DNA of 64,000 nucleotides from Tumebacillus sp. BK434. GTDB taxonomy: Bacteria > Bacillota > Bacilli > Tumebacillales > Tumebacillaceae. The DNA is taken from NCBI RefSeq assembly GCF_004340785.1, contig NZ_SLXS01000009.1:1-64000 (forward strand), read 5' to 3'. Positions 4,203 to 58,782 of the stretch are shown here, one piece after another. Below the pieces are notes generated by a model. The model was not told the origin of the DNA. It was given only the letters and a program-made list of their open reading frames with translations, and ran no database searches. The stretch's first letter is position 1; each line of letters opens with the position of its first letter. The position numbers and the translations under genes were made by a program.

Positions 4203-5822
4203 ATGAAACAGAAAGTGGGTGCGGCACTGTTAGCCGCGCTGATGCTCACCGGCGTGCCGACTGCGGCCGGCGCTGCCGATCCCGGCGTTGCGCCGAGCAC
4301 GCAGACGGTGCTGGGCCGGACGGTGCAGCTGGTGTATATCAACCTGAACGATCCGAACCTTGAAGTCAAAGCGGTCTCGGCAGAAAACAAAGTCGGCGAG
4401 ACCGAGCCTTTGTCCGCGCTGGCCACTCGCAACGGCGCATTGGCGGCGATCAACGGCGGTTACTTTAACGCCTATTCGGACGGACAGCCGCTTACGGTGG
4501 TGCGCACGAACGGGAAGTTTGTGCACAACGGCAGTTTTGGCGCGGTGTTTGGCATCAATGCGCTAAACAAGCCGTTTTTCGGCCGGATGTACCCGACGAT
4601 CGAAGGCAGCACGGGCGGCTCGTGGAGCTGGCCGAACAACTGGACGGCGTGGGGCATCAACCACTACTATGACAACGCCAGCGCGATCTCGATCCTGACG
4701 CCCGACGCGAAAAAACGCACGCTGCCGGCCAGCGGCAAGACGGTGGTCGTGCAAAACGGCGTGGTCAGCAAGATCGTCAGCGGCGACACTGCGATCCCGG
4801 CGAACGGCTATCTGGTGCATTTTGGCGCCAATGTGCTGTCGTCGGCCAATGCGTTCAGCGTGGGGGAGCAGGCGTCGTACAAGATCAGCTACCGCAGCTC
4901 GGCGGGCAAACCGATGAACGTCGATGCGGTCGGCAACATGATGGGCGGCGGCCCGCTGCTCGTTTCGGGCGGGGCGGTGGTGGTCGATCCGGCTGCCGAA
5001 AAGTTTACCGATCCCAAACAGACGTCGCGCGACTCCCGCTCGACCCGCACCTTTATCGGCTGGCGTTCTGACAACCGCCTCGTCTTCGCCACGGTGCCCA
5101 ACGTGTCGGTCTACGAGCTGGCCGATGTCGCCAAAGCGCTGAACATGACGCATGCGGTCGGCATGGACAGCGGCGCGACGGCCGGCCTCTACGCCAACGG
5201 CAGTTATCTGACCACGCCGGGCCGCGAAGTGCCGAATGCGGTGGTCGTGCGCAAACGCGACGCGTCATCGGTCAACATGTCCGGCTATGTAGACGTCTTC
5301 CAGGACCACTATGCGTATCAGGCGATCGCCAACCTGAAACAAAAAGGCGTGATGGGCGGCGAAGTCGTCGGCACGTCGCGCTTCTTCAACCCGAGCAAGA
5401 CGATGACCCGCGCCGAGCTGGCCGCGGTGCTGACCCAAGCGTTCGCCTTGCCTGCAGGCCAGCATGCGTTCCGCGATGCCAAAGGCGCGTGGTATGACAG
5501 CTTTGCCGGTGCGGTCGTCAGCGCCGGGTACATGGCCGGTTATTCGGCAACTGAGTTTGGCGGCAATGACGCGGTGACGGAGGAGCAGGTGATCGCCATC
5601 CTTGCCCGCATCCTCGCCAAACACGGCGTCCCGGCCACGCAAAAAGACCTCTGGCTGCAAAATCCCCCCAGTTCCTGGGCGGAAAAAGACGTGCACCTCG
5701 CGATCAAGCAGGGCCTGCTCGTCGATGCGTTCGGCGACAAAGCGTTCCTGCCGAAAGACCAGGCACAGCGCGCCGGCGTTGCGGTGCTGCTCGACCTCGC
5801 GATGAAAAAGATCGGCAAATGA
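4203..5822 (+). CDS. Secreted phosphodiester glycosidase (NAGPA/DUF2233) with SLH domains
   Basis: A 539-residue exported protein. Residues 1-27 form a signal peptide ending at AAGAA. Residues about 35-350 carry the NAGPA-type phosphodiester glycosidase fold, with AINGGYFN (about 82) and GMDSGATAGL (about 320), the conserved Gly-rich and Asp/Ser motifs. From about 360 to the end are SLH-type repeats (FQDHYAYQAIANLKQKGVM and following), which would anchor the enzyme to the cell-wall polymer or S-layer. The start at 4203 has GGAGGTG upstream. Enzymes of this fold cleave sugar-1-phosphodiesters, for instance in wall glycopolymers or exopolysaccharide. It stands alone with its own terminator. Confidence 0.8.
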   Translation: MKQKVGAALLAALMLTGVPTAAGAADPGVAPSTQTVLGRTVQLVYINLNDPNLEVKAVSAENKVGETEPLSALATRNGALAAINGGYFNAYSDGQPLTVVRTNGKFVHNGSFGAVFGINALNKPFFGRMYPTIEGSTGGSWSWPNNWTAWGINHYYDNASAISILTPDAKKRTLPASGKTVVVQNGVVSKIVSGDTAIPANGYLVHFGANVLSSANAFSVGEQASYKISYRSSAGKPMNVDAVGNMMGGGPLLVSGGAVVVDPAAEKFTDPKQTSRDSRSTRTFIGWRSDNRLVFATVPNVSVYELADVAKALNMTHAVGMDSGATAGLYANGSYLTTPGREVPNAVVVRKRDASSVNMSGYVDVFQDHYAYQAIANLKQKGVMGGEVVGTSRFFNPSKTMTRAELAAVLTQAFALPAGQHAFRDAKGAWYDSFAGAVVSAGYMAGYSATEFGGNDAVTEEQVIAILARILAKHGVPATQKDLWLQNPPSSWAEKDVHLAIKQGLLVDAFGDKAFLPKDQAQRAGVAVLLDLAMKKIGK

Positions 5823-41376: not shown

Positions 41377-41856
41377 GTGCAGATTAATCTGCTTGCCGTC
41401 GGCAAGCTCAAAGAAAAATACTGGACCGGAGCCGTCGACGAATATGCGAAGCGGCTCTCTTCATATTGCAAAGTGAACATCGTGGAAGTCCCGGACGAGC
41501 CGACCCCGGACAATGCGTCGGCCGCACAGGAAGAGGTGATTAAGAAGAAAGAAGCGGATAAGCTGCTTGCGAAGGTTGGGGAGCGGGACTATGTGATCGC
41601 GCTGGCGATCCAAGGGAAGAGTGTGACGTCGGAGGAGTTCGCGGAGCATTTGGATAAGATGGCGACGCAGGGGTACAGCACGTTTACGTTCGTCATTGGC
41701 GGGTCGCTTGGACTGCATGAAGATGTGTTGAAGCGGGCGAATTATAAGCTGTCTTTCTCGAAGTTCACGTTTCCGCACCAAATGGTGAGGGTAATTCTGC
41801 TCGAGCAGGTATATCGGGCGTTTCGGATTCAGCGGGGGGAACCTTACCACAAATAG
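41377..41856 (+). CDS. rlmH: 23S rRNA (pseudouridine1915-N3)-methyltransferase RlmH
   Basis: A 159-residue SPOUT methyltransferase. It has KLKEKYWTGAVDEYAKRLSSY near the N-terminus, FVIGGSLGLHEDVL (SAM-binding trefoil knot, about 108) and ends HQMVRVILLEQVYRAFRIQ then RGEPYHK. The length equals that of Staphylococcus OrfX/RlmH. GTG 41377 follows AAGGGAG. The 3' end is the integration site of SCC elements in staphylococci, and several diverged copies of this same end lie downstream. Confidence 0.97.
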   Translation: MQINLLAVGKLKEKYWTGAVDEYAKRLSSYCKVNIVEVPDEPTPDNASAAQEEVIKKKEADKLLAKVGERDYVIALAIQGKSVTSEEFAEHLDKMATQGYSTFTFVIGGSLGLHEDVLKRANYKLSFSKFTFPHQMVRVILLEQVYRAFRIQRGEPYHK

Positions 41857-41858
41857 CG
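41836..41858 (+). repeat. SCC-like att site at the rlmH 3' end (copy 0)
   Basis: GGGGAACCTTACCACAAATAG encodes G-E-P-Y-H-K-stop, the end of rlmH, and matches in position and sense the SCC attachment core of Staphylococcus orfX (E-A-Y-H-K-stop there). It is the reference for the copies at 50351, 51517, 52042, 54982, 56002 and 58763. Confidence 0.75.
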
Positions 41859-41888
41859 CATGTTTTTGGTGCGGTTTAGCAAAATAAG

Positions 41889-41930
41889 GAGCCCGTAGAT
41901 CGAGAGGAGTCGGTCTACGGGCTCATTTTT
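41889..41930 (+). terminator. Terminator of rlmH
   Basis: GAGCCCGTAGA pairs with TCTACGGGCTC, followed by ATTTTTG. It lies 33 bases after the rlmH stop and therefore inside the inserted side of the att site. It may also end the convergent gene at 41933. Confidence 0.8.
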
Positions 41931-41932
41931 GT

Positions 41933-42589
41933 TTATTCCACACGAACGCTACCATTTTCTGAAACCCAAAAGATTTCAAAAGGCATCGTCTGCTTTAGCC
42001 ATTCGACTCTAGGGGATAGGTTTGCATAGGTTGTGAAACCTTCAGGAAGAGCTAGAGCGAGCTTGGCAGTAGAGCTTGTTCCACGGTAAAGGATGAGGTC
42101 AAAGATAACCTGTGAGAACCAATGGCGGGCTTGTACGTGCTGACTTTTTTCTGGATAGCCTTTTACGCTGATCCATAGTTCGTTTCCGTCAGGTTCAAGA
42201 GCAACAATATCTTTTCCCTGTTCTCGTGACGTAGTGTTTGCTACGCTACGGATTGTATAGCCCTTCTGGACGAGGTAACTCACCACTTTTCCCTTAACAT
42301 TGCCTTCCCAGTACCATGCATTCGTTCCATCAGGTTCAATCTGCATAGGCTTCTTGGATACAGCTGTCTCGACATTGGAGCGGGCGTTATCGGGTACTTG
42401 GCTGACAATTTTATTTTTGCGGCAACGTTTACAGATACCTTTGTAGCGGAGGATGAGAGATGATTCTGATAACTGACTACACACTTGATAGATTGTTTGT
42501 CTCGGGTGAACACCAGATAGATCAGAAAGGCAATCATCACAAATTTCCGCAGTGGTCATCACAGATAGAATTCGATCTTTATTGGTCAC
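41933..42589 (-). CDS. Zinc-ribbon protein with PD-(D/E)xK-like nuclease domain
   Basis: A 218-residue protein. The N-terminal part has CDDC (about 17-20) and CKRC (about 50-53), a likely zinc ribbon. From about 90 to 170 is a restriction-endonuclease-like core: VVSYLVQKGYTIRSV, then GKDIVAL, then LWISVKGYPE, in which Asp and the Lys of VKG fit the D...(E/Q)xK active site of Mrr/PD-(D/E)xK proteins. GTG 42589 is chosen because GGAGGCC lies upstream. It is the first gene inside the island. A defence role is possible but not shown; transposon-end nuclease functions are the alternative. Confidence 0.55.
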   Translation of the reverse strand: MTNKDRILSVMTTAEICDDCLSDLSGVHPRQTIYQVCSQLSESSLILRYKGICKRCRKNKIVSQVPDNARSNVETAVSKKPMQIEPDGTNAWYWEGNVKGKVVSYLVQKGYTIRSVANTTSREQGKDIVALEPDGNELWISVKGYPEKSQHVQARHWFSQVIFDLILYRGTSSTAKLALALPEGFTTYANLSPRVEWLKQTMPFEIFWVSENGSVRVE

Positions 42590-42696
42590 GATGGGCCTCC
42601 AGTAAGGGATCACTTTTCAACATTCTACCATATTCAATATGTGAGAATAGTCAAGATCGTCTACTTTTAGCAGTCCCCTCGTCATTGTAACGACCC

Positions 42697-43167
42697 CTAG
42701 CTTCCCTCCTCAAGTACCCGCCTTGCGATCTCATAGCAGTCCTCCACATGGGAGTTTCCGACATACCACATTGCGCTAAATCCAACAACTGCTGATGTTG
42801 CTTGTCCGACAAAAGGGATATACTTGACGATCTGCTTGGTTGTATAGCGAAGGCCGACCTTTTTCAGAATTTGAAGGATGACTTGTTCCGTGACGAGTTT
42901 CCCGATGAAACGACTACCTGCCGCTTGGATGAGTCGTAGGACGAGTGCCTTTGTATGTGGGTCGAACTGGTTGATCTGCTCCTTGTCGAGGCCGAACCGC
43001 TTGCTGATGGCAGGGATGAGTTGAAGGAGCATCCCAACATCGGCAGCGATGTCAGTTCCCGGAATGGGAATCAGGGAGGCTGAGCCGGATACGACTGCTC
43101 GAACTGCTACCATGCAGTAGCAGTCCTTTCGGATGTGGTCGAGTTCTTCCAGAGTTTTGGGCAGCAT
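42697..43167 (-). CDS. DUF697-like membrane-associated protein
   Basis: A 156-residue protein with two hydrophobic helices. The segment SGSASLIPIPGTDIAADVGMLLQ (about 27-50) shows the IP.PG.D pattern of DUF697/YcjF-like domains often linked to dynamin- or Ras-like GTPases, and a second hydrophobic helix lies at IPFVGQATSAVVGFSAMW (about 120). No GTPase is fused or adjacent. ATG 43167 follows AGGAGAG; the recombinase gene ends 14 bases before it, so it is probably in the same transcript. Confidence 0.5.
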   Translation of the reverse strand: MLPKTLEELDHIRKDCYCMVAVRAVVSGSASLIPIPGTDIAADVGMLLQLIPAISKRFGLDKEQINQFDPHTKALVLRLIQAAGSRFIGKLVTEQVILQILKKVGLRYTTKQIVKYIPFVGQATSAVVGFSAMWYVGNSHVEDCYEIARRVLEEGS

Positions 43168-43180
43168 GAGAATCTCTCCT

Positions 43181-44812
43181 TTAGATGGCGATGGTGAATG
43201 GACGAATCATGCCGATCCAGTCGGCTCTCTTTCTAGGCATACGAAAAGCCCCTCCCGCGTTAGCAGAAGGGGCTTGGCCCAGGAAATACGTTTGCACTTC
43301 TTCATCGAAGCAGAGCTCGATGCTCTCGATCTTTCGTCGGTCTTTCTTGATCGTGATCTTCTTAATGATGAGCCGCAAGAGTGCCTTTTGTTGCTCAGGT
43401 GGAGCAGAGCGAAGGAGCTTGTCAAACTGGGTGAGAACAGACTGGACGAACGAGTAGGCGATCGGGTTACGGTTTTGGTCTTGGAGTTGCGGCGAAATCT
43501 CTTCTTTTCGCGCCTCTAGCTTCGCGTACTCGTCCTTTAGAGCATCAAACCGTTTGCTCAGATCATCCTTGTCGATCAGGTCGTCTTCGTAGAGTTTGAA
43601 CAGCTTTTGCTTCTTTGCGTCGATGCTGGTTAAGGATTTGTCGATGCCACGAAGCTCGTCTTCTAGTGGTTTAATCTTGCCGGACATCGTGGCGTTGATC
43701 TTTTTGACGACATCTTCGAGAATGCTGGGTTGCAGAATCACCTCCTTCAATCGCTTGATTACGTAGTCTTCCGCGACTTCTTTACGGATGGTGTTGGCCT
43801 TGCAAACGGCAGAGCCTTTGTTTTTGAAGGCCCCGCAAGTGTAGTAGAGTAGCGTCACATTTCCTGTCTTCCGTCGGCTGGTGTTTCGTTGCATGACCAT
43901 CCCCGCGCCGCATTGCAGGCATCTCAAAAGTCCTGTGAGGAAGAAATCGTTGTCGTGAACTCGCTTTTGCTTCCCGCCCTTGCTCTGAATGAGCTTTTTC
44001 ACCTGTTCCCATAGCTCTTCCGAGATGATGGGTTCGTGCTGGCCGTCTACGATGATCGGGTCGGGGTTCCTTCCCTTGCGGCGTTTTTCGTTCCAGTCCA
44101 CACGAACGTTGTACCGAATCTTGCCCATGTAGAGCGGATTTTTCAGGATGCCTTCGATGGAATTGATACCGAAAGGCTTGCCCCGCTTGGTTTGGTGTCC
44201 TTCGTGGTTCAAGAGGTTGGCAATCGCCTTGTAGCCTCTGCCTGATGCGTACAGTTCAAAGATGCGCGTGACTAAGGCGGCTTCTGCGGGGACGACCTGT
44301 AAAGTGTCGTCCACCGTTTGATACCCAAGCACGGTACCACCGTTCCATTTCCCTTGTCGCGCTCGTTGCTTCATGCCGAGCTTTACATTGTCTACGATCG
44401 TGTTGCGTTCGAGTTCACCGACCGCCCCCAGCATAGTAAAAAGGAACTTGCCTGTAGGGGTGGTGGTTTCGATGTTCGGCTCGCTGTAGCTTCGGAAGCC
44501 GACGTTGTTTTTGTTGAGGTGGTCAACGATGTTCAGCAGATCGACCTGATTGCGGGCGAGACGGTTGATCTTCCAGACGATGACCTCGTCAAATTCGCTA
44601 TTAGCGGCGGCCTCAAGCATCGCTTGCAGTTCAAGGCGACCTTTCATTGACTTGCCGGATACACCCCGGTCTACATTCTTCTGGACGACGACTTTCTGAG
44701 TGGCTTTGCAGTAGCTCTCAAGCGTCTCGATTTGAGCGTCGATGCTGAACCCGTGTTCGGCTTGTTCTTCGGTGCTAACACGGGCGTAGATGGCGACTCT
44801 TTGCAGATCCAT
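43181..44812 (-). CDS. Large serine recombinase, Ccr-like
   Basis: A 543-residue site-specific recombinase. The catalytic domain starts at RVAIYARVSTEEQAEHGFSI with the nucleophile Ser13 and continues with VWKINRLARNQVDLL and GELERNTIVDNVKLGM. A recombinase domain (about 165-270), a zinc ribbon (CLQCGAG near residue 300 with two later Cys) and a long coiled-coil region (about 370-460) follow, the order found in CcrA/B/C and in phage integrases. Length matches Ccr proteins (about 540-560). ATG 44812 follows GGAGGTC. Its place near rlmH, the rlmH-end repeats and the Cch-like gene upstream favour a Ccr role; a prophage integrase is less likely since no phage genes are present. Confidence 0.85.
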   Translation of the reverse strand: MDLQRVAIYARVSTEEQAEHGFSIDAQIETLESYCKATQKVVVQKNVDRGVSGKSMKGRLELQAMLEAAANSEFDEVIVWKINRLARNQVDLLNIVDHLNKNNVGFRSYSEPNIETTTPTGKFLFTMLGAVGELERNTIVDNVKLGMKQRARQGKWNGGTVLGYQTVDDTLQVVPAEAALVTRIFELYASGRGYKAIANLLNHEGHQTKRGKPFGINSIEGILKNPLYMGKIRYNVRVDWNEKRRKGRNPDPIIVDGQHEPIISEELWEQVKKLIQSKGGKQKRVHDNDFFLTGLLRCLQCGAGMVMQRNTSRRKTGNVTLLYYTCGAFKNKGSAVCKANTIRKEVAEDYVIKRLKEVILQPSILEDVVKKINATMSGKIKPLEDELRGIDKSLTSIDAKKQKLFKLYEDDLIDKDDLSKRFDALKDEYAKLEARKEEISPQLQDQNRNPIAYSFVQSVLTQFDKLLRSAPPEQQKALLRLIIKKITIKKDRRKIESIELCFDEEVQTYFLGQAPSANAGGAFRMPRKRADWIGMIRPFTIAI

Positions 44813-45234
44813 TTGCTGGACCTCCTCTGGTTTGATGAGTTCTGGTGTTTGGGCTTTGAAAGTTCGTTAGGATGTTGCTCCGTGTATGTCGTAACCAAAA
44901 TTGAAAGCATGTTGATGAAGAGCGAATATAACTTTTTGCTGGATTTGTCCATTTCATCTGGCCTCCATTTGCTAGTTCAGAGTGCTCGACAACATACTTA
45001 GACCGAGTAATACTTGAGAATCGGATTTCCTCGAGAAGGCAAAAGATTTCGATATCCGCATAGCCGTTCATTTTGTTCAGTTCCCCTATTCCCCTGCTCA
45101 TTTGAAAGACAGCTAGAGAACAAACAGTTCGACTTGTTCTTTCACTGATTCAGATACAGGGGAAGGAGGGGAAGAAATTGAATTTATGTGAGAGTTCTTA
45201 GGCTTACTCCCCCATAACAAAGGGGGAGAGAGTA
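44813..45234. other. Non-coding stretch between cch-like fragment and recombinase gene
   Basis: No convincing gene. A minus-strand frame from 44952 (MDKSSKKLYSLF...) runs 140 bases into the recombinase gene and lacks a good ribosome site. An inverted repeat AGAACAA/TTGTTCT lies at about 45116-45139, a possible operator or replication-protein site. Confidence 0.4.
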
Positions 45235-46050
45235 TCATTCGCGGGCTGACTCATTTTGCAAAAGTACGACGTGAACCCGTGTGTGGAGGGAGCCCGATTC
45301 TAGGGTTCTCTTTTTTGTGAACTCATCTTTATCACAATCGAGCCAACCGCGAGTAGCCCAGTTTTTCAGGATGACTTGATGAGAGTCTCCAAAGCCGCCT
45401 GCTTCTAAGATTTTTTTGAATTGTATCGGCAGAATGAGCACTTCATGGGGGTGTCCGTTCTTGCGTTTAATCAGTACCCAGAATTCTCTTCCCCTCGTGG
45501 TGAAATTGTCGCTGTGCAGTAACACAGTTTGCTTGAAGTATTCGAGGGCACGCTTCCCAATGTCACGTTCCTCGCTGTTTTCCTGAATCTGCTGGAGGAG
45601 CAGTTCACGTATTTTTTTGCGATCAATGGCAAGGCCAAGAGCTTTTTTTGCATAATAGGCGGTGACAAGAAGAATGGCGAATTTATCTGTAATCCGGTTC
45701 GTGAACCTGTCGGCATTTTGAATCTTTTGACGAATGAATTGACAGTAGTATTCCCACTTTCTGTACAATCGCTTAAACGGAAGTTTCAACAGGAACTGCA
45801 CGAATTCAGGCCCGGCATGTCCGTAGTTCTGGAGTAGCCTGCGTTTGAGCGAGTCAGCGTTTTGTGCCGATGTTGTCCATGCGATGTTTCCAAATTCGAA
45901 GAGACGCATTCGAATCCCGACGTTTGGGGAGCTTTTCGTCAATAGAGAATGCTCACCGTTCGAAAGTAGCACACCATTCCAGTTACCGTTTGCAGTTAGC
46001 TGTGCCTCCTTGTTTAGTCGAGTAAAACGAGAAAAAGGATTTGTTTTGAA
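45235..46050 (-). pseudogene. DUF927/Cch-like helicase, 5'-truncated
   Basis: The frame codes for the C-terminal part of a DUF927 protein: FKTNPFSRFTRLNKEA and WNGVLLSNGEHSLLTKSS (the conserved S.GE box), MRLFEFGN, then NYGHAGPEFVQFL and a helical tail. DUF927 proteins in SCC elements (Cch) are AAA+/MCM-like self-loading helicases coded upstream of ccr in the same direction, as here. Homology-like sequence starts at 46050 behind a stop codon; the ATP-binding N-terminal half is missing, and the restriction-modification genes lie where it should be. The first ATG is 45972. Loss of the helicase would stop element replication but not recombinase action. Confidence 0.7.
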
Positions 46051-46231
46051 GGGGAGTTACAAATGAAAGTATTCGAGTAGGACAAATGATGTCCGAGGCG
46101 GGACAAAATATATGGAAATAAACTTATCATAGAACAAAACCTATGAAGAGTGATACACTATAGATGAAAAAGGCAAACATTTGATCGTATCAGTGTTTCC
46201 GAAATTTACATATAAATAAGGAGGAATAACT

Positions 46232-47119
46232 ATGACTATCCCACATCCTATACCTTATCAAGGGAGCAAACGACAATTAGCAGAAAAGATTCTTCAGTAT
46301 TTCCCGTCGGAAGTAGAAACTTTGATCGAACCTTTTGCGGGATCTGCTGCGATCACATTGGCTGCGGCTCAGAAATCTTTAGCAAAACACTTTGTTATTA
46401 ATGACATTAACCAACCCCTTATGGAACTTTGGAAGGAAATTATTCAAAATCCTTCTCAGATTGCAAAATGTTATGAGGAAGTTTGGAACGAACAACTTGG
46501 GAAGGAACGCGATTATTATGATCTTGTACGAGTCAGATTTAATAGATATCACCAGCCCACTGACCTACTCTATCTATTAGCACGGTGCGTCAAAGCGGCA
46601 GTCAGATACAATTCAAAAGGTGAGTTTAATCAAGGAGCAGACAACAGAAGGAAAGGGAGAATGCCCTCAAAAATGAAAAAGGACATATTAGAAGCATCTA
46701 AACTATTGTATGGGAGAACGGTTATCCATTCGTTGAATTTCCTTGAAGTGGCTATGATGGCGAATGATAAAGATTTGGTCTATATGGACCCTCCGTATCA
46801 AGGGGTAAATAAGGGAGCTAGTCATCGATATATTAGTGGATTGGATTCATGTGAATTTATTGATGCGTTGGATATGTTGAATAAAAACAACATTTCGTAT
46901 ATTTTGAGTTATGATGGACGAACTGGAACGAAGGTGTTTGGAGAAATGTTGCCTAGTCACCTAGAGTTAATGCATGTTGAGATAGAGGCTGGTACGTCAT
47001 CTCAATCAACTTTGTTGGGGAAGAATGACATAACATTTGAGTCTCTCTATCTCTCTCCTGCTTTAATCAAGAGAATGGACCAATCAGAATATCAAAAACA
47101 GTTACAATTGTCTCTATAG
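46232..47119 (+). CDS. D12-class N6-adenine DNA methyltransferase
   Basis: A 295-residue Dam/DpnIIA-type methyltransferase. IPYQGSKRQLAEKILQYFP starts the SAM-binding part; LIEPFAGSAAITLAA is the FxGxG motif; VYMDPPYQGVNKG carries the DPPY catalytic motif (about 185); ILSYDGR is near the end. D12-class enzymes methylate adenine. ATG 46232 follows AAGGAGG. An HNH endonuclease gene follows 130 bases later on the same strand, so the pair is a type II restriction-modification unit. Both are AT-rich relative to the chromosome. Confidence 0.9.
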   Translation: MTIPHPIPYQGSKRQLAEKILQYFPSEVETLIEPFAGSAAITLAAAQKSLAKHFVINDINQPLMELWKEIIQNPSQIAKCYEEVWNEQLGKERDYYDLVRVRFNRYHQPTDLLYLLARCVKAAVRYNSKGEFNQGADNRRKGRMPSKMKKDILEASKLLYGRTVIHSLNFLEVAMMANDKDLVYMDPPYQGVNKGASHRYISGLDSCEFIDALDMLNKNNISYILSYDGRTGTKVFGEMLPSHLELMHVEIEAGTSSQSTLLGKNDITFESLYLSPALIKRMDQSEYQKQLQLSL

Positions 47120-47249
47120 GCCACGACTTACAAATGTTCACAAGAGCCTCCCAATATGATAAGCTATGAGGGTCAACAATGCTCTTAAAGCTAAATGAAA
47201 TACAAATGCGATAACTTGCGCATTTGTATTTCTTTTTGGGGGAATAATC

Positions 47250-47966
47250 GTGAACAAAGAAGATTTGAGTCCGGAGTTTTTGGAGTTGCTGAAAAGCGTT
47301 ACAGAAAAAAGACCCAAACAGGTAATTGATCACATTTTAGAACACGGATATATAACTCAAGAAGACTTACAGGAGAAATATGGTTATACACACGGTCCAA
47401 GGGCTGCGAAGGATGTTCGAGATAAAGGAATTCCACTTGAGACATTTCGTGTTAAAAGTTCAAATGGTCGTAGTATAGGAGCTTACCGTTTTGGCGACTT
47501 CTCAAAAGTTCGAAATGGGGTTTTAGGTGGCAGGAAAGTCTTTTCAAAGGAATTTAAAAAAGAATTACTCGATATTTCGGGGGAAAAGTGCAATATTTGT
47601 CATACATGTTATGAAGAGCGTTACCTCCAAATAGATCATCGAGTACCATATGAGGTAAGTGGGGATGAAAAGGACTTTAATGATACGAAAAAATACATGT
47701 TGGTCTGTGGTACCTGTAATCGTCAGAAATCATGGTCTTGCGAACACTGTGAGAACTGGAATAATGAAAAAGACCCAGATGTTTGCAAAACTTGTTACTG
47801 GGGATCTCCCGAGAAATATAAACATATCGCACTAAGGGAAATGAGAAGAGTGAACTTAGTTTTCGAAAGAGATGAAATAGAATTATATAAAAAGTTGAAG
47901 AAAGGTGCCGAAAAAGATTCGTACCCTATTGATGAGTATATAAAAAATATATTGAGGAGCAAATAA
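47250..47966 (+). CDS. HNH-type restriction endonuclease
   Basis: A 238-residue protein. The N-terminal third is a helical, possibly winged region (DHILEHGYITQEDLQEKYGYTH). The HNH nuclease core follows: CNICHTCYEERYLQIDHRVPYEVSGDE in its known parts has CxxC and the IDHRVP catalytic His (about 132), then LVCGTCNRQKS closes the zinc site, and CEHC..CKTC makes a second ribbon. GTG 47250 follows GGGGGAA. Its partner is the upstream adenine methyltransferase. Target sequence unknown. Confidence 0.8.
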   Translation: MNKEDLSPEFLELLKSVTEKRPKQVIDHILEHGYITQEDLQEKYGYTHGPRAAKDVRDKGIPLETFRVKSSNGRSIGAYRFGDFSKVRNGVLGGRKVFSKEFKKELLDISGEKCNICHTCYEERYLQIDHRVPYEVSGDEKDFNDTKKYMLVCGTCNRQKSWSCEHCENWNNEKDPDVCKTCYWGSPEKYKHIALREMRRVNLVFERDEIELYKKLKKGAEKDSYPIDEYIKNILRSK

Positions 47967-48026
47967 AAATAAGTTGGATACAACAAACAAAAATTACATC
48001 TGTCGTATTACAACTACATAGAATCT

Positions 48027-48065
48027 AAAGATCGCAGACTCCATTATTTGGAGTCTGCGATCTTT
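48027..48065 (+). terminator. Terminator of the restriction-modification genes
   Basis: A perfect 16-bp stem, AAAGATCGCAGACTCC with GGAGTCTGCGATCTTT, 60 bases after the HNH gene and 23 bases before the IS21 left end. Confidence 0.85.
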
Positions 48066-48152
48066 AATCTCTTTAGTTCTGTGCTAAGTGTCAACGCCGG
48101 GGTTAAATTGACCCACTATCGCCGTTTCGAAAATGACCCCCCCCCCGGCGAT

Positions 48153-48926
48153 TTATTGGTCCACACTCTTTGGCATCCCGTAAGCACCAGACTTCATCTT
48201 TTCCCGTAGGCGATAGCTGTTCCCACGAATATTCACGATGTGAGCATGGTGTAGTAGACGGTCGAGAATCGCTGTGGCTAGTATCGAATCCCCGATAAGC
48301 TCTCCCCATTCCCAAAAGTTCTTGTTACTCGTCATAATGATGCTCCCACGTTCGTATCGAGCACTAATCACTTGAAAGAAGAGATTCGCTGCCACTCGAT
48401 CCATCGGCAGATAGCCCACCTCATCGATGAGAAGGAGTTTGGGCCGAGTATACACTCGTAGACGCTTGTCTAATCGGTTTTCCTCGTGCGCTTTACGTAG
48501 GTCTTCAATGAGATGCGAAAGCGTGACGAAATATACGGATAGACCATGAGTGATCGCTTCCATAGCTAACGCCACCGACAGATGGCTTTTGCCGACGCCT
48601 GGCGGCCCAAGGAAGAGGATGTTTTCTGTGCGTGTTGCAAAGCTCATGGTGGCTAGTTCACGTATCAGCCGTTCATCAATGCTTGGCTGAAATGAAAAAT
48701 CAAATTCGTCAAATTTCTTGCGATAGGGGAGGTGGGCAAGTTTGGTACGCACCTCTAAGTTACGTTGCTGACGTTGTGTGATCTCTTGACCCAGAAGGTC
48801 ATTCAGGAATCCGATATAGGTAGGTTGCTCTCGCGTTGCACGTTCGAGGCAAGCATCCAAGGCGGCAGCCCCTTGATGGATTCCGAGATCTTCAAGTCGA
48901 GCGCGGACTTGTTCCAACTCGATCAT
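48153..48926 (-). CDS. istB: IS21 helper ATPase IstB
   Basis: A 257-residue AAA+ ATPase related to DnaC/DnaI: Walker A LGPPGVGKSHLSVAL (about 107), Walker B LLLIDEVGYLPMD (about 168), and SNKNFWEWGELIGD near the end. IstB assists the IstA transposase at target DNA. Its ATG overlaps the istA stop as ATGA, the usual coupling in IS21. It appears intact. Confidence 0.95.
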   Translation of the reverse strand: MIELEQVRARLEDLGIHQGAAALDACLERATREQPTYIGFLNDLLGQEITQRQQRNLEVRTKLAHLPYRKKFDEFDFSFQPSIDERLIRELATMSFATRTENILFLGPPGVGKSHLSVALAMEAITHGLSVYFVTLSHLIEDLRKAHEENRLDKRLRVYTRPKLLLIDEVGYLPMDRVAANLFFQVISARYERGSIIMTSNKNFWEWGELIGDSILATAILDRLLHHAHIVNIRGNSYRLREKMKSGAYGMPKSVDQ

Positions 48927-50138
48927 GCTCCCACCTCCACCAGTTGCTCATACACATCGAGTGATCGTACCACGACCTGTTCGGATGAAACCTGTATAGC
49001 CGTTGGTTGAGGATATGTCCTGCCGTTGGCAGCGGAGAGACCGGCATACTGTTTGGGACAGTTGCGAATGGCTCGTGAACGGTGAACGGCTTCATGTCTG
49101 GCGACTTGAAGGTGATCGACCCAAATCTCGATCCAACCATTACAGTCTCGGACTGCCACTTCACGCCCACTGTATTGCCAGGGCACACCGTAGCGAACAC
49201 TATCATAACTTACGAAACCGTCCCGACTAACACGTCGGGCTTCTCGACGGTACTTGGCCCAACGATCGTTCGAGGGAAGGGACTGAAGTTCCTCGCTGGA
49301 AAGTCGATCGCAGGGACGTTCGCCGGTCGTACCATGAATACGACGATTGACCTCTTCACACCAGACTCGTGCTTGTCGGTTCAGATCGCCAATATCAACA
49401 AACTGACGCCCCGGAATGAAGTTCTCCTTTACGAAGCGGACGGCTCGTTCAACCTTTCCTTTCGTCTGCGGTCGACGTACGCGGCATACTTAACCCGATG
49501 CTTGCAGCGAAATCCTCGTAGAGCGGGTGCCAGCGTGGCTTTTTGTCATCACCCATCCCAAGAATGACCGTCTTCATGTGATCGGTTAGCATGACGCGAG
49601 GAATACCATTGAAGTACTCGAAGGCATGAATCATGCAACGCAAGAAACTATGAATGTCGCAACGTTTCGTGAATTCGATGTACGTGGATCGCGAGTAACC
49701 TAGCACCATAACGAAAACGGCAACCTTACGCCTCTCTCCGTTCTCTTCCACGTAATCACACAGCCCCCAGTCTACTTGCGCATGTTCACCCGGTTTGGTT
49801 TCGTAACGTAGAACGGCTTGCGCCTGTCTAGGCGGGCGATAGCCGCGTACATAGTCCTTGAGTATTGTTCTGCCCCCGTCGTATCCTTTCTCACGTAAAA
49901 GACGCAGCAATACTTCGCAATTGTAGATTCCGTTCGTAAAACACTGCTGCAAAAAGGGCATGAACGGGTCAAGTTTCGACGGCCGTTCCGCAGTATCCTT
50001 AGATCGCGGAAGTTCGCGATCTCTCAGGTACTTTCGGATTGTATTACGCGAGAATCCCGTTTCTCTGGCCATGGCTCGAATGCTCTTGCCCATAGCCTTC
50101 ATTTCGTGTAAATTGATCACAGTCCCACCTCTTAGCAT
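48923..50138 (-). pseudogene. istA: IS21 transposase IstA, frameshifted
   Basis: The frame starts MLRGGTVINLHEMKAMGKSI with a GGGGAG site upstream. It has a helix-turn-helix (IRAMARETGFSRNTIRKYL) and a DDE core start (AQVDWGLCDYV, and LTDHMKTVI). At about 49476 it runs into a stop (ending GLSMPRTS..). The homologous RPQTKGKVERAVRF continues in another frame, so bases have been lost at the junction; the rest, GRQFVDIGDLN to the TGA at 48923, is open. Single lesion, so decay is recent. Confidence 0.88.
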
Positions 50139-50245
50139 TTGGATGTCTCCCCTCGATGACTTGGCCGTTTTCGAGGAGATATTCGCTATTTGGTGGGTCA
50201 TTTCTTTTTCGGCTATGCCGGGTCAATTATACTCCGGCGGTGACA

Positions 50246-50642
50246 CTAAGAAACATCTATCACTGATGTGTCTTTTAGTAGTTTATAATTTATTTCAAAT
50301 TTCCCTTTGTATGAGTGTTGTAGATAAAGAACATGCGCTAACACCGATACGGTGAACCGTATCATAATTAACGGCGAGAAATGTTGATTGTGGGGATGGC
50401 GAGTAGAGTTGGCGGGCATGAGGAATAAAGTAGAATTTATCCCCTACAACCTTTGGGTTTAGAGGTTTTTGCTTTGAAAGGAGAGAAATATTGCGCTATA
50501 TATTTCCAGCTTGTGGTATCATAAAAGGATCGAGATTTTAATCTCAGGGGCGAAGCTAACGCATAGGAATTTGCGAAATTCGTGAATGATACATTGTGTG
50601 AAATATCCGCAAGTTCAAAAATAATATGTAAGAGGTGTACAA
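50246..50642. other. AT-rich intergenic stretch with att copy 1
   Basis: No gene seen besides the att repeat. Upstream of the next gene, TTGCGC and TGTGGTATCAT (extended -10) near 50490-50522 may form a promoter, but the spacing is about 20 bases, so this is weak. GATTTTAATC follows, an interrupted palindrome. Confidence 0.35.
50349..50377 (+). repeat. SCC-like att repeat (copy 1)
   Basis: GGTGAACCGTATCATAATTA at 50351-50370 codes in the rlmH frame for G-E-P-Y-H-N-stop. It closes the 8.5-kb recombinase-bearing section. It is almost the same as copy 2, sharing ACGGTGAACCGTATCATA and TAACGGCGA around it. Confidence 0.7.
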
Positions 50643-51233
50643 ATGTTAACCTACGAACAGATTACAAGCCAAATACTTGATTCGATGAAAGATGCAGGAA
50701 TTAATCCATATCTTATTAGACATAAACTTGAGTTGGTTACTCTTATGAAAGAATTTGAATGTTTGTGTGTCGTGAAAAATAAGAAATCCCCCTATATTAC
50801 AAGAGCAGAGATTAGTTTCAGTTGGGAAAGTATCATGACGGCTGAATCGATTTACGGAGGAGATTGTTGCGCTCTATTCCATGATGAAACTGAAGATTGT
50901 TTACATGATGATGAGAACAGGGAAGCAGTATTGGAACTGGAAATTAAATATAACATAGAGGCCAAAGAAGAGTTCAAGGAAGAGACGAATCTAATCAATA
51001 CAGAATTACTGACAGTTATTAACGCAGTAATGGAACATCAAAATAAACCACAAATAACATGGGTGATAACTCTTAATAATAATGGAGCACACTTTATAAG
51101 TGATGTAAAATTGCAACATTACTGGAACATAGAAATCAAAGATGAAGATTTAGAATTAACTGAAATTTTTGAAGAAGTGCATGAAATGCTAGTAAATATT
51201 GATAGATTGCCCTTTGTTAAAGACGAATTCTAA
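50643..51233 (+). CDS. Hypothetical acidic protein of the 1.2-kb att-bounded cassette
   Basis: A 196-residue very acidic soluble protein of unknown function. It starts MLTYEQITSQILDSMKDAGINP, contains Cys-rich GGDCCALFHDETEDCLHDDEN (about 78-98) and ends with a hydrophobic/acidic segment. ATG 50643 follows AAGAGGTG. DNA is AT-rich and unlike the chromosome. It is the only gene between att copies 1 and 2, like an immunity or orphan gene carried as single cargo. No family recognised. Confidence 0.65.
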   Translation: MLTYEQITSQILDSMKDAGINPYLIRHKLELVTLMKEFECLCVVKNKKSPYITRAEISFSWESIMTAESIYGGDCCALFHDETEDCLHDDENREAVLELEIKYNIEAKEEFKEETNLINTELLTVINAVMEHQNKPQITWVITLNNNGAHFISDVKLQHYWNIEIKDEDLELTEIFEEVHEMLVNIDRLPFVKDEF

Positions 51234-51351: not shown

Positions 51352-51540
51352 ACCGATCTCCCCCTCTTTCGTGAGGGGATGAGCCGACCACTCTTGAGGA
51401 GCCTTATTCAATGTGTTGTTTGTATTAGCATAGCGGAATGTAAGTGAGAACTGTTGTTTATTAGATTGTGATAAAAAATTTATGAATTGGCATGGGTTTG
51501 TGCTTACTGCCGTTACGGTGAACCGTATCATAGGTAACGG
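51352..51540. repeat. Duplicated toxin leader plus att (copy A)
   Basis: From the toxin start outwards this DNA matches 51880-52061: CTTTCGTGAGGGGATGAGCC, CTTGAGGAGCC, the minus-strand promoter TATGCTA, and at the end GTTACGGTGAACC with the rlmH-like core. Toxin leader and att site therefore form one duplicated unit. Confidence 0.75.
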
Positions 51541-51543
51541 CGA
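51515..51543 (+). repeat. SCC-like att repeat (copy 2)
   Basis: GGTGAACCGTATCATAGGTA at 51517-51536 codes for G-E-P-Y-H-R-stop in the rlmH frame. Flanking CCGTTAC (left) and GTAACGG (right) make an inverted repeat around the core, as expected of a recombinase site. Confidence 0.7.
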
Positions 51544-51587
51544 AGAACACGAAGCAAATGAAACTTTGTCTAACTTGGTCGATGTTA

Positions 51588-51617
51588 TTGAGGTCAATAA
51601 ACGCTCTATGTTAGAAT
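51588..51617 (+). promoter_or_regulatory. Promoter of the antitoxin RNA
   Basis: TTGAGG (51588-51593), 18 bases, then TAGAAT (51612-51617) with an upstream TG (extended -10). It points toward the 3' end of the convergent toxin gene. Confidence 0.6.
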
Positions 51618-51622
51618 GAACT

Positions 51623-51776
51623 TGCAGAGCTTGCATAAAATAAAAAAGACCATAGGTGCTTGAACACCTACGGTCGGTTGACACAACTGATACCTTGCAA
51701 GGGTGTCGGCTCATAGGTTTGCAAAATAGATCGCCGGAGCTACCAACTCGAAGGGCGATCTATTTCTTTTTATTTT
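51623..51776 (+). ncRNA. Antisense RNA antitoxin (RatA/SR4-like), predicted
   Basis: About 150 nt from the promoter at 51588-51617 to a 12-bp terminator stem AAATAGATCGCC/GGCGATCTATTT (51724-51765) with a CTTTTTATTTT tail. It includes a second hairpin GACC.TAGGTG/CACCTA.GGTC near 51650-51675. It overlaps the toxin stop, so the two RNAs pair at their 3' ends, as for txpA/RatA and bsrG/SR4 of B. subtilis. The RNA is inferred from promoter and terminator. Confidence 0.6.
51697..51766. repeat. 70-bp repeat (copy 1), antitoxin/toxin terminator
   Basis: GCAAGGGTGTCGGCTCATA and the terminator hairpin recur with few changes at 62634-62704. This copy is the 3' end of the antitoxin RNA. Confidence 0.85.
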
Positions 51777-51879
51777 GATTGTCCAACATATGCTTAATGA
51801 TTGTCACCACCAGAGTCAAAGCTGCTACGAGGAACAGCCCAAACTGGAGCATGAGTGAAATCATTTCATGTGTCGACAT
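51760..51879 (-). CDS. Holin-like type I toxin (39 aa)
   Basis: A 39-residue peptide, MSTHEMISLMLQFGLFLVAA then LTLVVTIIKHMLDNQNKKK: a short N-terminus, one membrane helix (about 8-29) and a basic tail. This is the putative holin-like toxin family (Hol_Tox; TxpA/BsrG-like) of Firmicutes, which insert in the membrane when not repressed by antisense RNA. ATG 51879 follows GGGGGTGAG. The stop lies inside the antitoxin terminator hairpin. It is the only protein between att copies 2 and 3, so it could help keep the cassette in the genome. Confidence 0.8.
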   Translation of the reverse strand: MSTHEMISLMLQFGLFLVAALTLVVTIIKHMLDNQNKKK

Positions 51880-51948
51880 TCTCTCACCCCCTTTCGTGAG
51901 GGGATGAGCCGATCACCCTTGAGGAGCCTATTCAGTTGTGTTGGTTGT

Positions 51949-51977
51949 ATTCTAGCATAGGAGAATCAAATTCGGAA
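51949..51977 (-). promoter_or_regulatory. Promoter of the type I toxin
   Basis: On the minus strand TTCCGA (51977-51972), 17 bases, then TGC-TAGAAT with TAGAAT at 51954-51949, an extended -10. A leader of about 60 nt would precede the toxin start. Confidence 0.5.
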
Positions 51978-52039
51978 CGCTTGTTCTTTAGAGTGTGGTG
52001 GAAATTTTATTTTTGCTGATCGTTTGTGCCGCGGCTGTT

Positions 52040-52061
52040 ACGGTGAACCTTACCACAAGTA
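52040..52061 (+). repeat. SCC-like att repeat (copy 3)
   Basis: GGTGAACCTTACCACAAGTA at 52042-52061 codes for G-E-P-Y-H-K in the rlmH frame and differs from the rlmH end itself at two positions over GAACCTTACCACAA.GTA. It is the closest match to the resident rlmH end. Confidence 0.75.
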
Positions 52062-52146: not shown

Positions 52147-52374
52147 TCAGGGTAGCAACTCTTGGACTTGATCAAATGAGACTTCTTCGATAGAGGTGGT
52201 GTACAGTTCGCGGACAAACTGTTCACTTTTCCCTATCATATTAAAGAATAATTTATGGTTTTCTTTTGACTCTAACTGCACCATGATGTAATAATTAGGA
52301 TACCAGCCAAAGCTGTCCCAATACACGTCCGCAACCACATTTGAAAAGCCTGAAGAATAAAACGTCGAACGCAC
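52147..52374 (-). pseudogene. Possible truncated gene fragment
   Basis: A minus-strand frame (RSTFYSSGFSNVV, YWDSFGWYPNYYIMVQLE, LYTTSIEEVSFDQVQELLP) has protein-like composition and a stop at 52147 but no ribosome site; its only candidate start (GTG 52374) is beside the pepE promoter. It may be the 3' end of a gene lost in recombination. No family recognised. Confidence 0.3.
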
Positions 52375-52395: not shown

Positions 52396-53058
52396 ATGAA
52401 ACTTCTGCTTACAGCTGGAGGCATCAGTAACAAAAGCATACATAACGCATTGGTTGACATGCTGGACAAACCGATTGCCGAGTCAAGCGCCCTCGGCATA
52501 ACCACTGCATCGTACGCATTACGCGGTGGTGCAGGTCTCGCATGGAACTTCTTCAATGGACAAGACGGCGCACCGATGACTGAGTTGGGCTGGAAGTCCA
52601 TGGGGGTGCTGGAGCTAACTGCGCTGCCCAGCATCGATCAAGAGCTTTGGGTTCCAATGCTCAAGGAGACTGACGTTCTACTGGTGAATGGCGGTGACCC
52701 GTTGTTTTTGTCTTACTGGATGAAGCAGTCCGGACTGGCAGACCTCTTGCCGTCGCTGCGGTTAGTCTATGTAGGAATGAGTGCCGGGAGCATGGTGATG
52801 GCACCAAACATCGGGGAATTCTTCGTTGGCTGGACTCCACCCACCGGTGGTGATAAAACGCTGGGTCTGGTCGATTTTGCGATGTTCCCGCATCTGGATC
52901 ACGAGATGCTGCCGTATAACACGATGGCGAATGCAGAGAAATGGGCAGCCGGGATGCAGGGTCCGGCGTATGCAATGGATGATGATACCGCCATCAAAGT
53001 GATCGATGGAGAGGTCGAAGTTGTATCCGAAGGGCATTGGAAACTGTTTACGCCCTGA
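52396..53058 (+). CDS. Peptidase E-like S51 family protein
   Basis: A 220-residue protein with the class-I-amidotransferase-like fold of S51 peptidases: MKLLLTAGGISNKSI, LLVNGGDPLFLSYW (about 100), and the nucleophile Ser in VGMSAGSMVM (about 131), followed by DFAMFPHLDHE with the catalytic His. PepE cleaves Asp-X dipeptides; cyanophycinase is a relative. ATG 52396 follows CGAGGAGATGAG. It is alone between the att copy and the GGDEF gene. Confidence 0.85.
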   Translation: MKLLLTAGGISNKSIHNALVDMLDKPIAESSALGITTASYALRGGAGLAWNFFNGQDGAPMTELGWKSMGVLELTALPSIDQELWVPMLKETDVLLVNGGDPLFLSYWMKQSGLADLLPSLRLVYVGMSAGSMVMAPNIGEFFVGWTPPTGGDKTLGLVDFAMFPHLDHEMLPYNTMANAEKWAAGMQGPAYAMDDDTAIKVIDGEVEVVSEGHWKLFTP

Positions 53059-55999: not shown

Positions 56000-56022
56000 A
56001 CGGTGAGCCTTATCATAAGTAA
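56000..56022 (+). repeat. SCC-like att repeat (copy 5)
   Basis: GGTGAGCCTTATCATAAGTA at 56002-56021 then A codes exactly for G-E-P-Y-H-K-stop, with codons different from the resident rlmH. GTTAC precedes it as in copies 2 and 3. Confidence 0.75.
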
Positions 56023-58762: not shown

Positions 58763-58782
58763 GGTGAACCGTACCGCAAGTA
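58763..58782 (+). repeat. SCC-like att repeat (copy 6)
   Basis: GGTGAACCGTACCGCAAGTA then G codes for G-E-P-Y-R-K-stop in the rlmH frame. It is the last copy seen in the window. The flanking left DNA differs from the other copies (GGCATAGGTG instead of GTTACGGTG). Confidence 0.6.

Follow-up and report, generated by a model that had tools for sequence, protein, structure and literature searches.

The SCC elements of staphylococci carry cch1 together with the recombinase genes ccrAB, and they are inserted at rlmH with inverted repeats at the element ends, as described in the available part of PMC10061031. An SCC-like element at rlmH outside the staphylococci is the ECC of Enterococcus, which has ccrAB and the att motif TATCATAA according to the available part of PMC6222049. 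Bacillus and Paenibacillus, among others, have islands with Pol-SSB primases at rlmH, which carry a large serine recombinase and restriction-modification cargo and some of which are tandem composites where the rlmH end is repeated; these islands were chosen for their Pol-SSB primases and few had a DUF927 helicase (PMC10061031, same part). Since SCC-like elements are thus known in Enterococcus and rlmH islands in other Bacillota, as far as the available parts of PMC6222049 and PMC10061031 go, the kind of element described below is already known.

The window analysed here, i.e. the whole stretch of 64,000 nucleotides from Tumebacillus sp. BK434, has rlmH, the target gene of SCC, as the left neighbour of the element, a neighbour that, like the att sites, the first-pass annotation had not mentioned. 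The predicted features establish a layout with insertion at rlmH, a whole solitary CcrB-like recombinase, a halved Cch1-type helicase and a row of cassettes. Reading these together, we consider it probable that 41857-50370 is a cassette-chromosome element of the SCC kind at the rlmH 3' end, which would be excised by its CcrB-like recombinase and would have lost replication, and that small cassettes may have been moved by this recombinase or its kin. The insertion lies at the 3' end of rlmH with an att core within the last codons, the large serine recombinase belongs to the Ccr group with CcrB as the top model, direct att repeats stand at both ends (41836-41855 and 50351-50370), and the element ends are inverted repeats with 20 of 32 mirrored positions. 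The element of approximately 8.5 kb, which contains ccr, half of cch, a restriction-modification pair and an IS21 insertion, is composed as follows.

41377-41856, plus strand: rlmH (orfX), the target gene (Pfam SPOUT_MTase, 204.6 bits)
41836-41855, plus strand: left att core, the final rlmH codons (repeat family D2)
41857-41930, plus strand: element left end, GCGCATGTTTTT arm and terminator-like hairpin (41889-41924); same left end in genomes G003 and G006
41933-42613, minus strand: 226-aa ORF, no assigned function; 78% identity to a T. flagellatus element protein
42697-43167, minus strand: 156-aa ORF, no assigned function; T. flagellatus has DNA of 92.6% identity, without a corresponding picked ORF
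43181-44812, minus strand: ccr, CcrB-like large serine recombinase, full length by profiles and pairwise identity
45235-46029, minus strand: C-terminal half of a Cch1-type helicase with HTH domain, by profiles; frame open to 46050
46232-47119, plus strand: D12-class adenine DNA methyltransferase (Pfam, 136.4 bits; PADLOC MTase_II, 273.9 bits)
47250-47966, plus strand: type II restriction endonuclease (PADLOC REase_II, 179.1 bits; no Pfam family above cut-off)
48089-50245, minus strand: IS21-family insertion, ends read by eye; IstB at 48153-48926, IstA-like frame at 49449-50201 apparently interrupted
50327-50343, plus strand: element right arm, mirroring the left arm at 20 of 32 positions about a shared GA
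50351-50370, plus strand: right att core of the ccr element, from the repeat search

The Ccr-like recombinase that had been proposed at 43181-44812 is indeed there, with 543 residues and the Resolvase, Recombinase and zinc-ribbon domains in that order, and its best NCBIfam model is SCCmet_CcrB with 396 bits, followed by CcrC with 326, XisF with 160 and CcrA with 97. Since the equivalog for staphylococcal CcrB (NF047343) demands at least 900 bits and the protein falls short at 396, we file it as CcrB-like and not as CcrB. Its identity to an S. epidermidis CcrB amounts to 43% over 413 residues, versus 24% over 357 residues to the CcrA adjacent to that CcrB, and its identity to the counterpart in T. 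flagellatus is 95-96%. The RVSTEEQ region and the four zinc-ribbon cysteines, which we take to hold the catalytic serine and to be the zinc residues, respectively, are kept in the full-length protein. The top-ranked phage matches reach 31-34% identity, and in the plasmid collection the matches listed, which were capped at 5000 records, are led by staphylococcal recombinases at approximately 42% together with a gene of Paenibacillus cellulosilyticus that is split and reaches 40%. Staphylococcal SCC elements have a ccrA and ccrB pair; searching the source genome with the recombinase of the window as query returned this single recombinase and no second one. CcrC acts alone. In the recombinase tree, which has no CcrC row and whose other rows were picked as best CcrB matches, the backbone is without resolution, and kinship to staphylococcal CcrB is not settled by it.

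When 398 genomes of the phylum were surveyed with the CcrB profile, 241 had a match and none was above the cut-off, and the recombinase of the window was the strongest match with at most a few candidates scored per genome. Among the next three strongest, genomes G447 and G104 have the CcrB-like gene beside rlmH, and in G093 there is no rlmH within the 20 kb examined. Within the 20 kb examined in G447 and G104, a search of little power did not bring out another copy of the rlmH end. Two Bacillota loci other than the window in which a CcrB-like recombinase directly adjoins rlmH are L087 (6586-8316) and L089 (9574-10956); in one of them the gene overlaps the rlmH end, and in the stretches examined there a further att was not found.

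The neighbouring fragment (45235-46050, 271 open codons) had been described as a DUF927/Cch remnant, and the Cch part of this label holds, while the DUF927 part does not. The Pfam profile HTH_56, named 'Cch helix turn helix', matches the fragment with 74.5 bits (E 8.8e-21, cut-off 26.2) over model positions 1-110 of 111, so the C-terminal domain of a Cch helicase is present; the NCBIfam model SCCmet_Cch1 (NF047345) adds 103 bits over positions 271-515 of 542, and by sequence the fragment matches PDB entry 5dgk with an E-value of 1.7e-17. By profile and sequence comparison the similarity to Cch is thus far beyond chance. Full membership of Cch1 demands a whole-model score of 700 bits or more, which neither the fragment with 103 bits nor the intact relatives with 229 and 220 bits attain. 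The S.GE and NYGHAGPEF stretches pointed out by the first reading are present and align with the intact copies. The Pfam DUF927 profile, on the other hand, covers the lost half and has no match to the fragment, and we rejected it as a label: in the intact T. flagellatus Cch it spans residues 26-292, and since the homology of the window begins at residue 280 (52-53% protein identity), the remnant lies almost wholly downstream of it.

The absence of the ATPase half was also borne out. The GDSTQGKTT and FDEAS segments of intact Cch, presumably Walker A and Walker B, precede the start of the homology and are both absent from the fragment, and with the intact protein as query the fragment itself was the single match in the source genome at E ≤ 0.001. 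As the assembly of this genome consists of 32 contigs and is 97.85% complete, a gap could hide the lost half. At the break sit the D12 methyltransferase and the type II restriction enzyme, as had been noticed, with the IS21 insertion after them. The whole-fragment structure model has a mean pLDDT of 53 and its usable part is approximately the last 110 residues. The suggested structure comparison showed that this HTH part resembles the SCCmec Cch 5dgk (Z 10.7, rmsd 3.3, 96 aligned residues) and equally a relaxosome protein (5vfy, Z 10.2) and the SaPIBov1 Rep (8tch, Z 10.1), and because these tie with 5dgk the HTH fold alone is not specific for Cch. Cch 5dgk and SaPIBov1 Rep 8tch are sequence relatives of the fragment as well as fold relatives of its HTH part, but their chains include the ATPase part, which the copy in the window is without.

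The Cch HTH domain was found in 15 of the 398 phylum genomes and in 3 of 61 relatives, with the source genome included in both counts. Intact cch-ccr pairs, which had been recommended as a check, were found in two relatives, G003 and T. flagellatus (G006), with Cch proteins of 615 and 542 residues, respectively, both having DUF927 followed by the same HTH domain, and in G003 the pair lies directly behind rlmH. These pairs and the family profiles agree with the reported order, in which the fragment is upstream of the recombinase on the same strand as in cch-ccr; the same order is found in an S. epidermidis record, where a DUF927 protein is followed by two recombinases. Two further loci with a full Cch, from Brevibacillus panacihumi and Cytobacillus firmus, were set aside as they have no ccr and no rlmH among the ORFs picked in the stretches examined. 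The neighbours in these two loci resemble tyrosine recombinases as judged by eye.

From the left end through ccr the DNA is 84.3-92.6% identical to T. flagellatus, whereas the alignments of the six neighbouring core genes on the left reach 70-79%, and the match stops near the start of ccr, leaving the cch fragment without a DNA match there. It therefore looks as if the recombinase and its own end were exchanged as a unit apart from the helicase. As the ccr element of T. flagellatus is on another contig than rlmH, rlmH may not be its sole site.

For the att sites we rely on the repeat search, the symmetry of the ends and the homology endpoints, since a crude test with 25 unaligned rlmH-end bases has little power (best match 19/25 in the window and 16/25 in G003, versus 20 and 17 for the best shuffled query). 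In an unbiased repeat search, the last 20 bases of rlmH were found to recur at 50351, 52042, 56002 and 58763, and a longer repeat includes 51517. At 41836 and 50351, the arms that face into the element are near-palindromic about a shared GA, with 20 of 32 positions mirrored compared with a random mean of 8.1, and none of 20000 placements reaches 20. All three ccr elements examined show such symmetry, G003 with 24/32 (0 of 20000 placements) and T. flagellatus with 17/32 (8 of 20000). Serine recombinases cross over at a central dinucleotide, and arms mirrored about it are the expected layout of their sites. The ECC att motif TATCATAA is found at the 50351 and 56002 sites, and the rlmH end has TACCACAA. 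This end layout agrees with the SCC ends in the available part of PMC10061031 and with the ECC ends in that of PMC6222049.

Matches to an att pattern built from staphylococcal sites were absent from the window. A pattern taken from the window gave 28 matches with at most one mismatch in seven genomes of the family, versus 2 for the reversed control, and 20 of the 28 are at most 40 kb downstream of rlmH on the rlmH strand, 6 of these 20 being the rlmH ends themselves; these counts are partly circular, since they rest on a pattern derived from the window, with one position relaxed once the relatives had been seen. More independent than the pattern counts is a test of homology endpoints between genomes that leaves out HSPs running through rlmH. 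Here, among 597 distinct endpoints, 34 are no more than 12 bp away from an att site (null mean 1.7, maximum 8 in 2000 shuffles), and 18 of the 24 att sites away from rlmH have an endpoint (null mean 1.42, maximum 6 in 2000 shuffles), with the reservation that the genomes are related and the endpoints are not independent. The remaining 6 of 24 without an endpoint include the right att of the ccr element at 50351 as well as 56002 and 58763.

Past the ccr element the att cores delimit a row of cassettes, which carry a 196-aa ORF, a 0.5-kb BsrG unit, a peptidase S51/GGDEF/glyoxalase group and an AzlC/TrmB-type/GrpB group. The features are the following.

50643-51233, plus strand: 196-aa ORF carried by the next cassette, without a family match above cut-off
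51517-51536, plus strand: att core (repeat family D1)
51651-51942, minus strand: type I toxin-antitoxin RNA of the BsrG type, including a 39-aa Hol_Tox peptide and flanked by att cores on both sides (Rfam RF01412, Pfam Hol_Tox)
52042-52061, plus strand: att core (repeat search)
52153-52217, minus strand: 65-bp remnant, 3' end of a second CcrB-like recombinase gene, longer in G003 (86% identity)
56002-56021, plus strand: att core (repeat search)
58763-58782, plus strand: att core, last found in the window (repeat search)

As judged from this remnant, the cassette at 52042 is a second ccr element that has lost its recombinase here. Over its first 114 bp, the cassette starting at 52042 matches the beginning of a G003 cassette with 89% identity, and the remnant matches the CcrB-like recombinase of that cassette (L009, 105-1478). 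The peptidase S51 gene (52396-53058; L009, 11162-11824) recurs as cargo in the arrays of G001, G002, G005 and G006, in some of them in several copies. A stretch resembling the left end of the ccr element is found on the same contig (C9, approximately 66558; L011), some 8 kb beyond the last att site that was found, and the island may therefore extend past the window. Elsewhere in the source genome (contig C3, 466702-472954; L004), away from rlmH, att-like cores form a second cluster, with one BsrG unit between two of them.

The 0.5-kb unit at 51537-52041 scores 81.8 bits with Rfam RF01412 (gathering score 55) and its small hydrophobic peptide, the predicted toxin, 35.8 with Hol_Tox (cut-off 23.3), which classifies it as BsrG-type. 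In the seven genomes there are 38 BsrG matches, 30 of them above the gathering score; 11 are at most 40 kb downstream of rlmH, and since 8 have an att core of no more than one mismatch at a distance of 73-108 bp, most of the 38 are away from a clear att site. Out of 11 units examined, 10 encode a hydrophobic peptide of 38-44 residues, of at least two kinds, and the one on contig C3 of the source genome yielded no such peptide. Other BsrG-type units of approximately 0.5 kb are found beside or between att cores in G006 (C2:234207-235496, in tandem), G004 (C4:147134-147371) and the source genome (C3:466823-467121). A stabilising role is what we infer for these toxin-antitoxin units.

In the mechanism we propose, the CcrB-like recombinase would join the att sites at 41836 and 50351 across the GA, upon which the element would leave as a circle and rlmH would be restored. 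Without the ATPase half the circle would not be unwound by a helicase of its own and would be diluted out, unless it re-integrated or was served by another helicase. The recombinase of the ccr element, or close relatives of it, could also have moved the smaller att-bounded cassettes downstream. The suggestion in the first-pass annotation that replication was lost while excision was kept may well be right, as it fits the anatomy, where the Walker segments are gone, the recombinase is full length and att sites are present on both sides. A bolder and quite tentative idea, to which we give considerably less credence, is that the rlmH end in the Tumebacillus family is an integron-like platform, where one or more solitary CcrB-like recombinases would shuffle recombinase-less att-bounded cassettes, down to 0.5-kb toxin-antitoxin units keeping the array by addiction, and where the studied element, having given up its own replication, would be the resident engine.

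Of the other explanations, the one that survives best, unlikely as we find it, is that the element is dead, with a recombinase gene that is still readable in an immobile cassette, and with the Cch fragment, the restriction-modification pair and IS21 as successive steps of decay and insertion in a fossil island. The loss of half of cch, the interrupted look of the IS21 frame and the remnants of a second recombinase next door would all be expected from such decay, but a full-length recombinase with 95-96% protein identity to that of T. flagellatus and two ends that have retained their symmetry argue against it. It appears still more doubtful that the Cch fragment is in use by itself as a DNA-binding protein, retained on account of its HTH domain, e.g. 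for regulation of the element or recruitment of a host helicase. Such a use could account for a frame that is open over 271 codons and for an HTH domain that is complete by profile (1-110 of 111) and is the confidently modelled part, yet the open frame offers no start codon before a GTG at 45972, which already lies inside the homologous region, and about half of the Cch1 model is missing. That an ordinary phage-type serine integrase adjoins an unrelated DUF927 gene by chance is hardly credible: serine recombinases with some CcrB-profile match are common (the 241 of 398 genomes above), but the gene in the window is the strongest of those scored in that survey, the same pair recurs intact in two relatives, and rlmH, the symmetry of the ends and the breakpoint statistics agree, which together contradict chance neighbours.

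We return to the reading of the locus as a cassette-chromosome element that probably lost replication. Compared with SCC with its cch1 and ccrAB, the element is alike in the insertion at the 3' end of rlmH, the Ccr-group recombinase, the position of Cch upstream of ccr on one strand and the end repeats, but it belongs to another bacterial family, its CcrB-like recombinase is single, with no CcrA partner turning up in the genome, and its helicase is halved. With ECC, as described in the available part of PMC6222049, it shares an SCC-like character at rlmH outside the staphylococci and a related att motif, whereas ECC has ccrAB and the present element has a single recombinase with a Cch1-type helicase and is followed by small cassettes in a row. 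The Pol-SSB rlmH islands, in the available part of PMC10061031, are likewise serine-recombinase islands behind rlmH with restriction-modification cargo, some of them tandem with rlmH-end repeats, but they were selected by their primase and few have a DUF927 helicase. Among the literature matches listed, none combines a solitary CcrB-like recombinase with a Cch1-type helicase and with toxin-antitoxin units bounded by att sites, and no open-licence paper was found that has both 'Tumebacillus' and 'cassette chromosome'.

The SCC-type toolkit, with the rlmH target, a Ccr-like recombinase, a Cch1-type helicase and end repeats, is thus present in a family far from the staphylococci. The purpose of replication is not known even for the SCC elements, according to the available part of PMC10061031, and near relatives that have the helicase either whole or naturally halved make this purpose directly testable. 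The minimal att-bounded toxin-antitoxin units suggest, in addition, how cassettes without a recombinase might persist.
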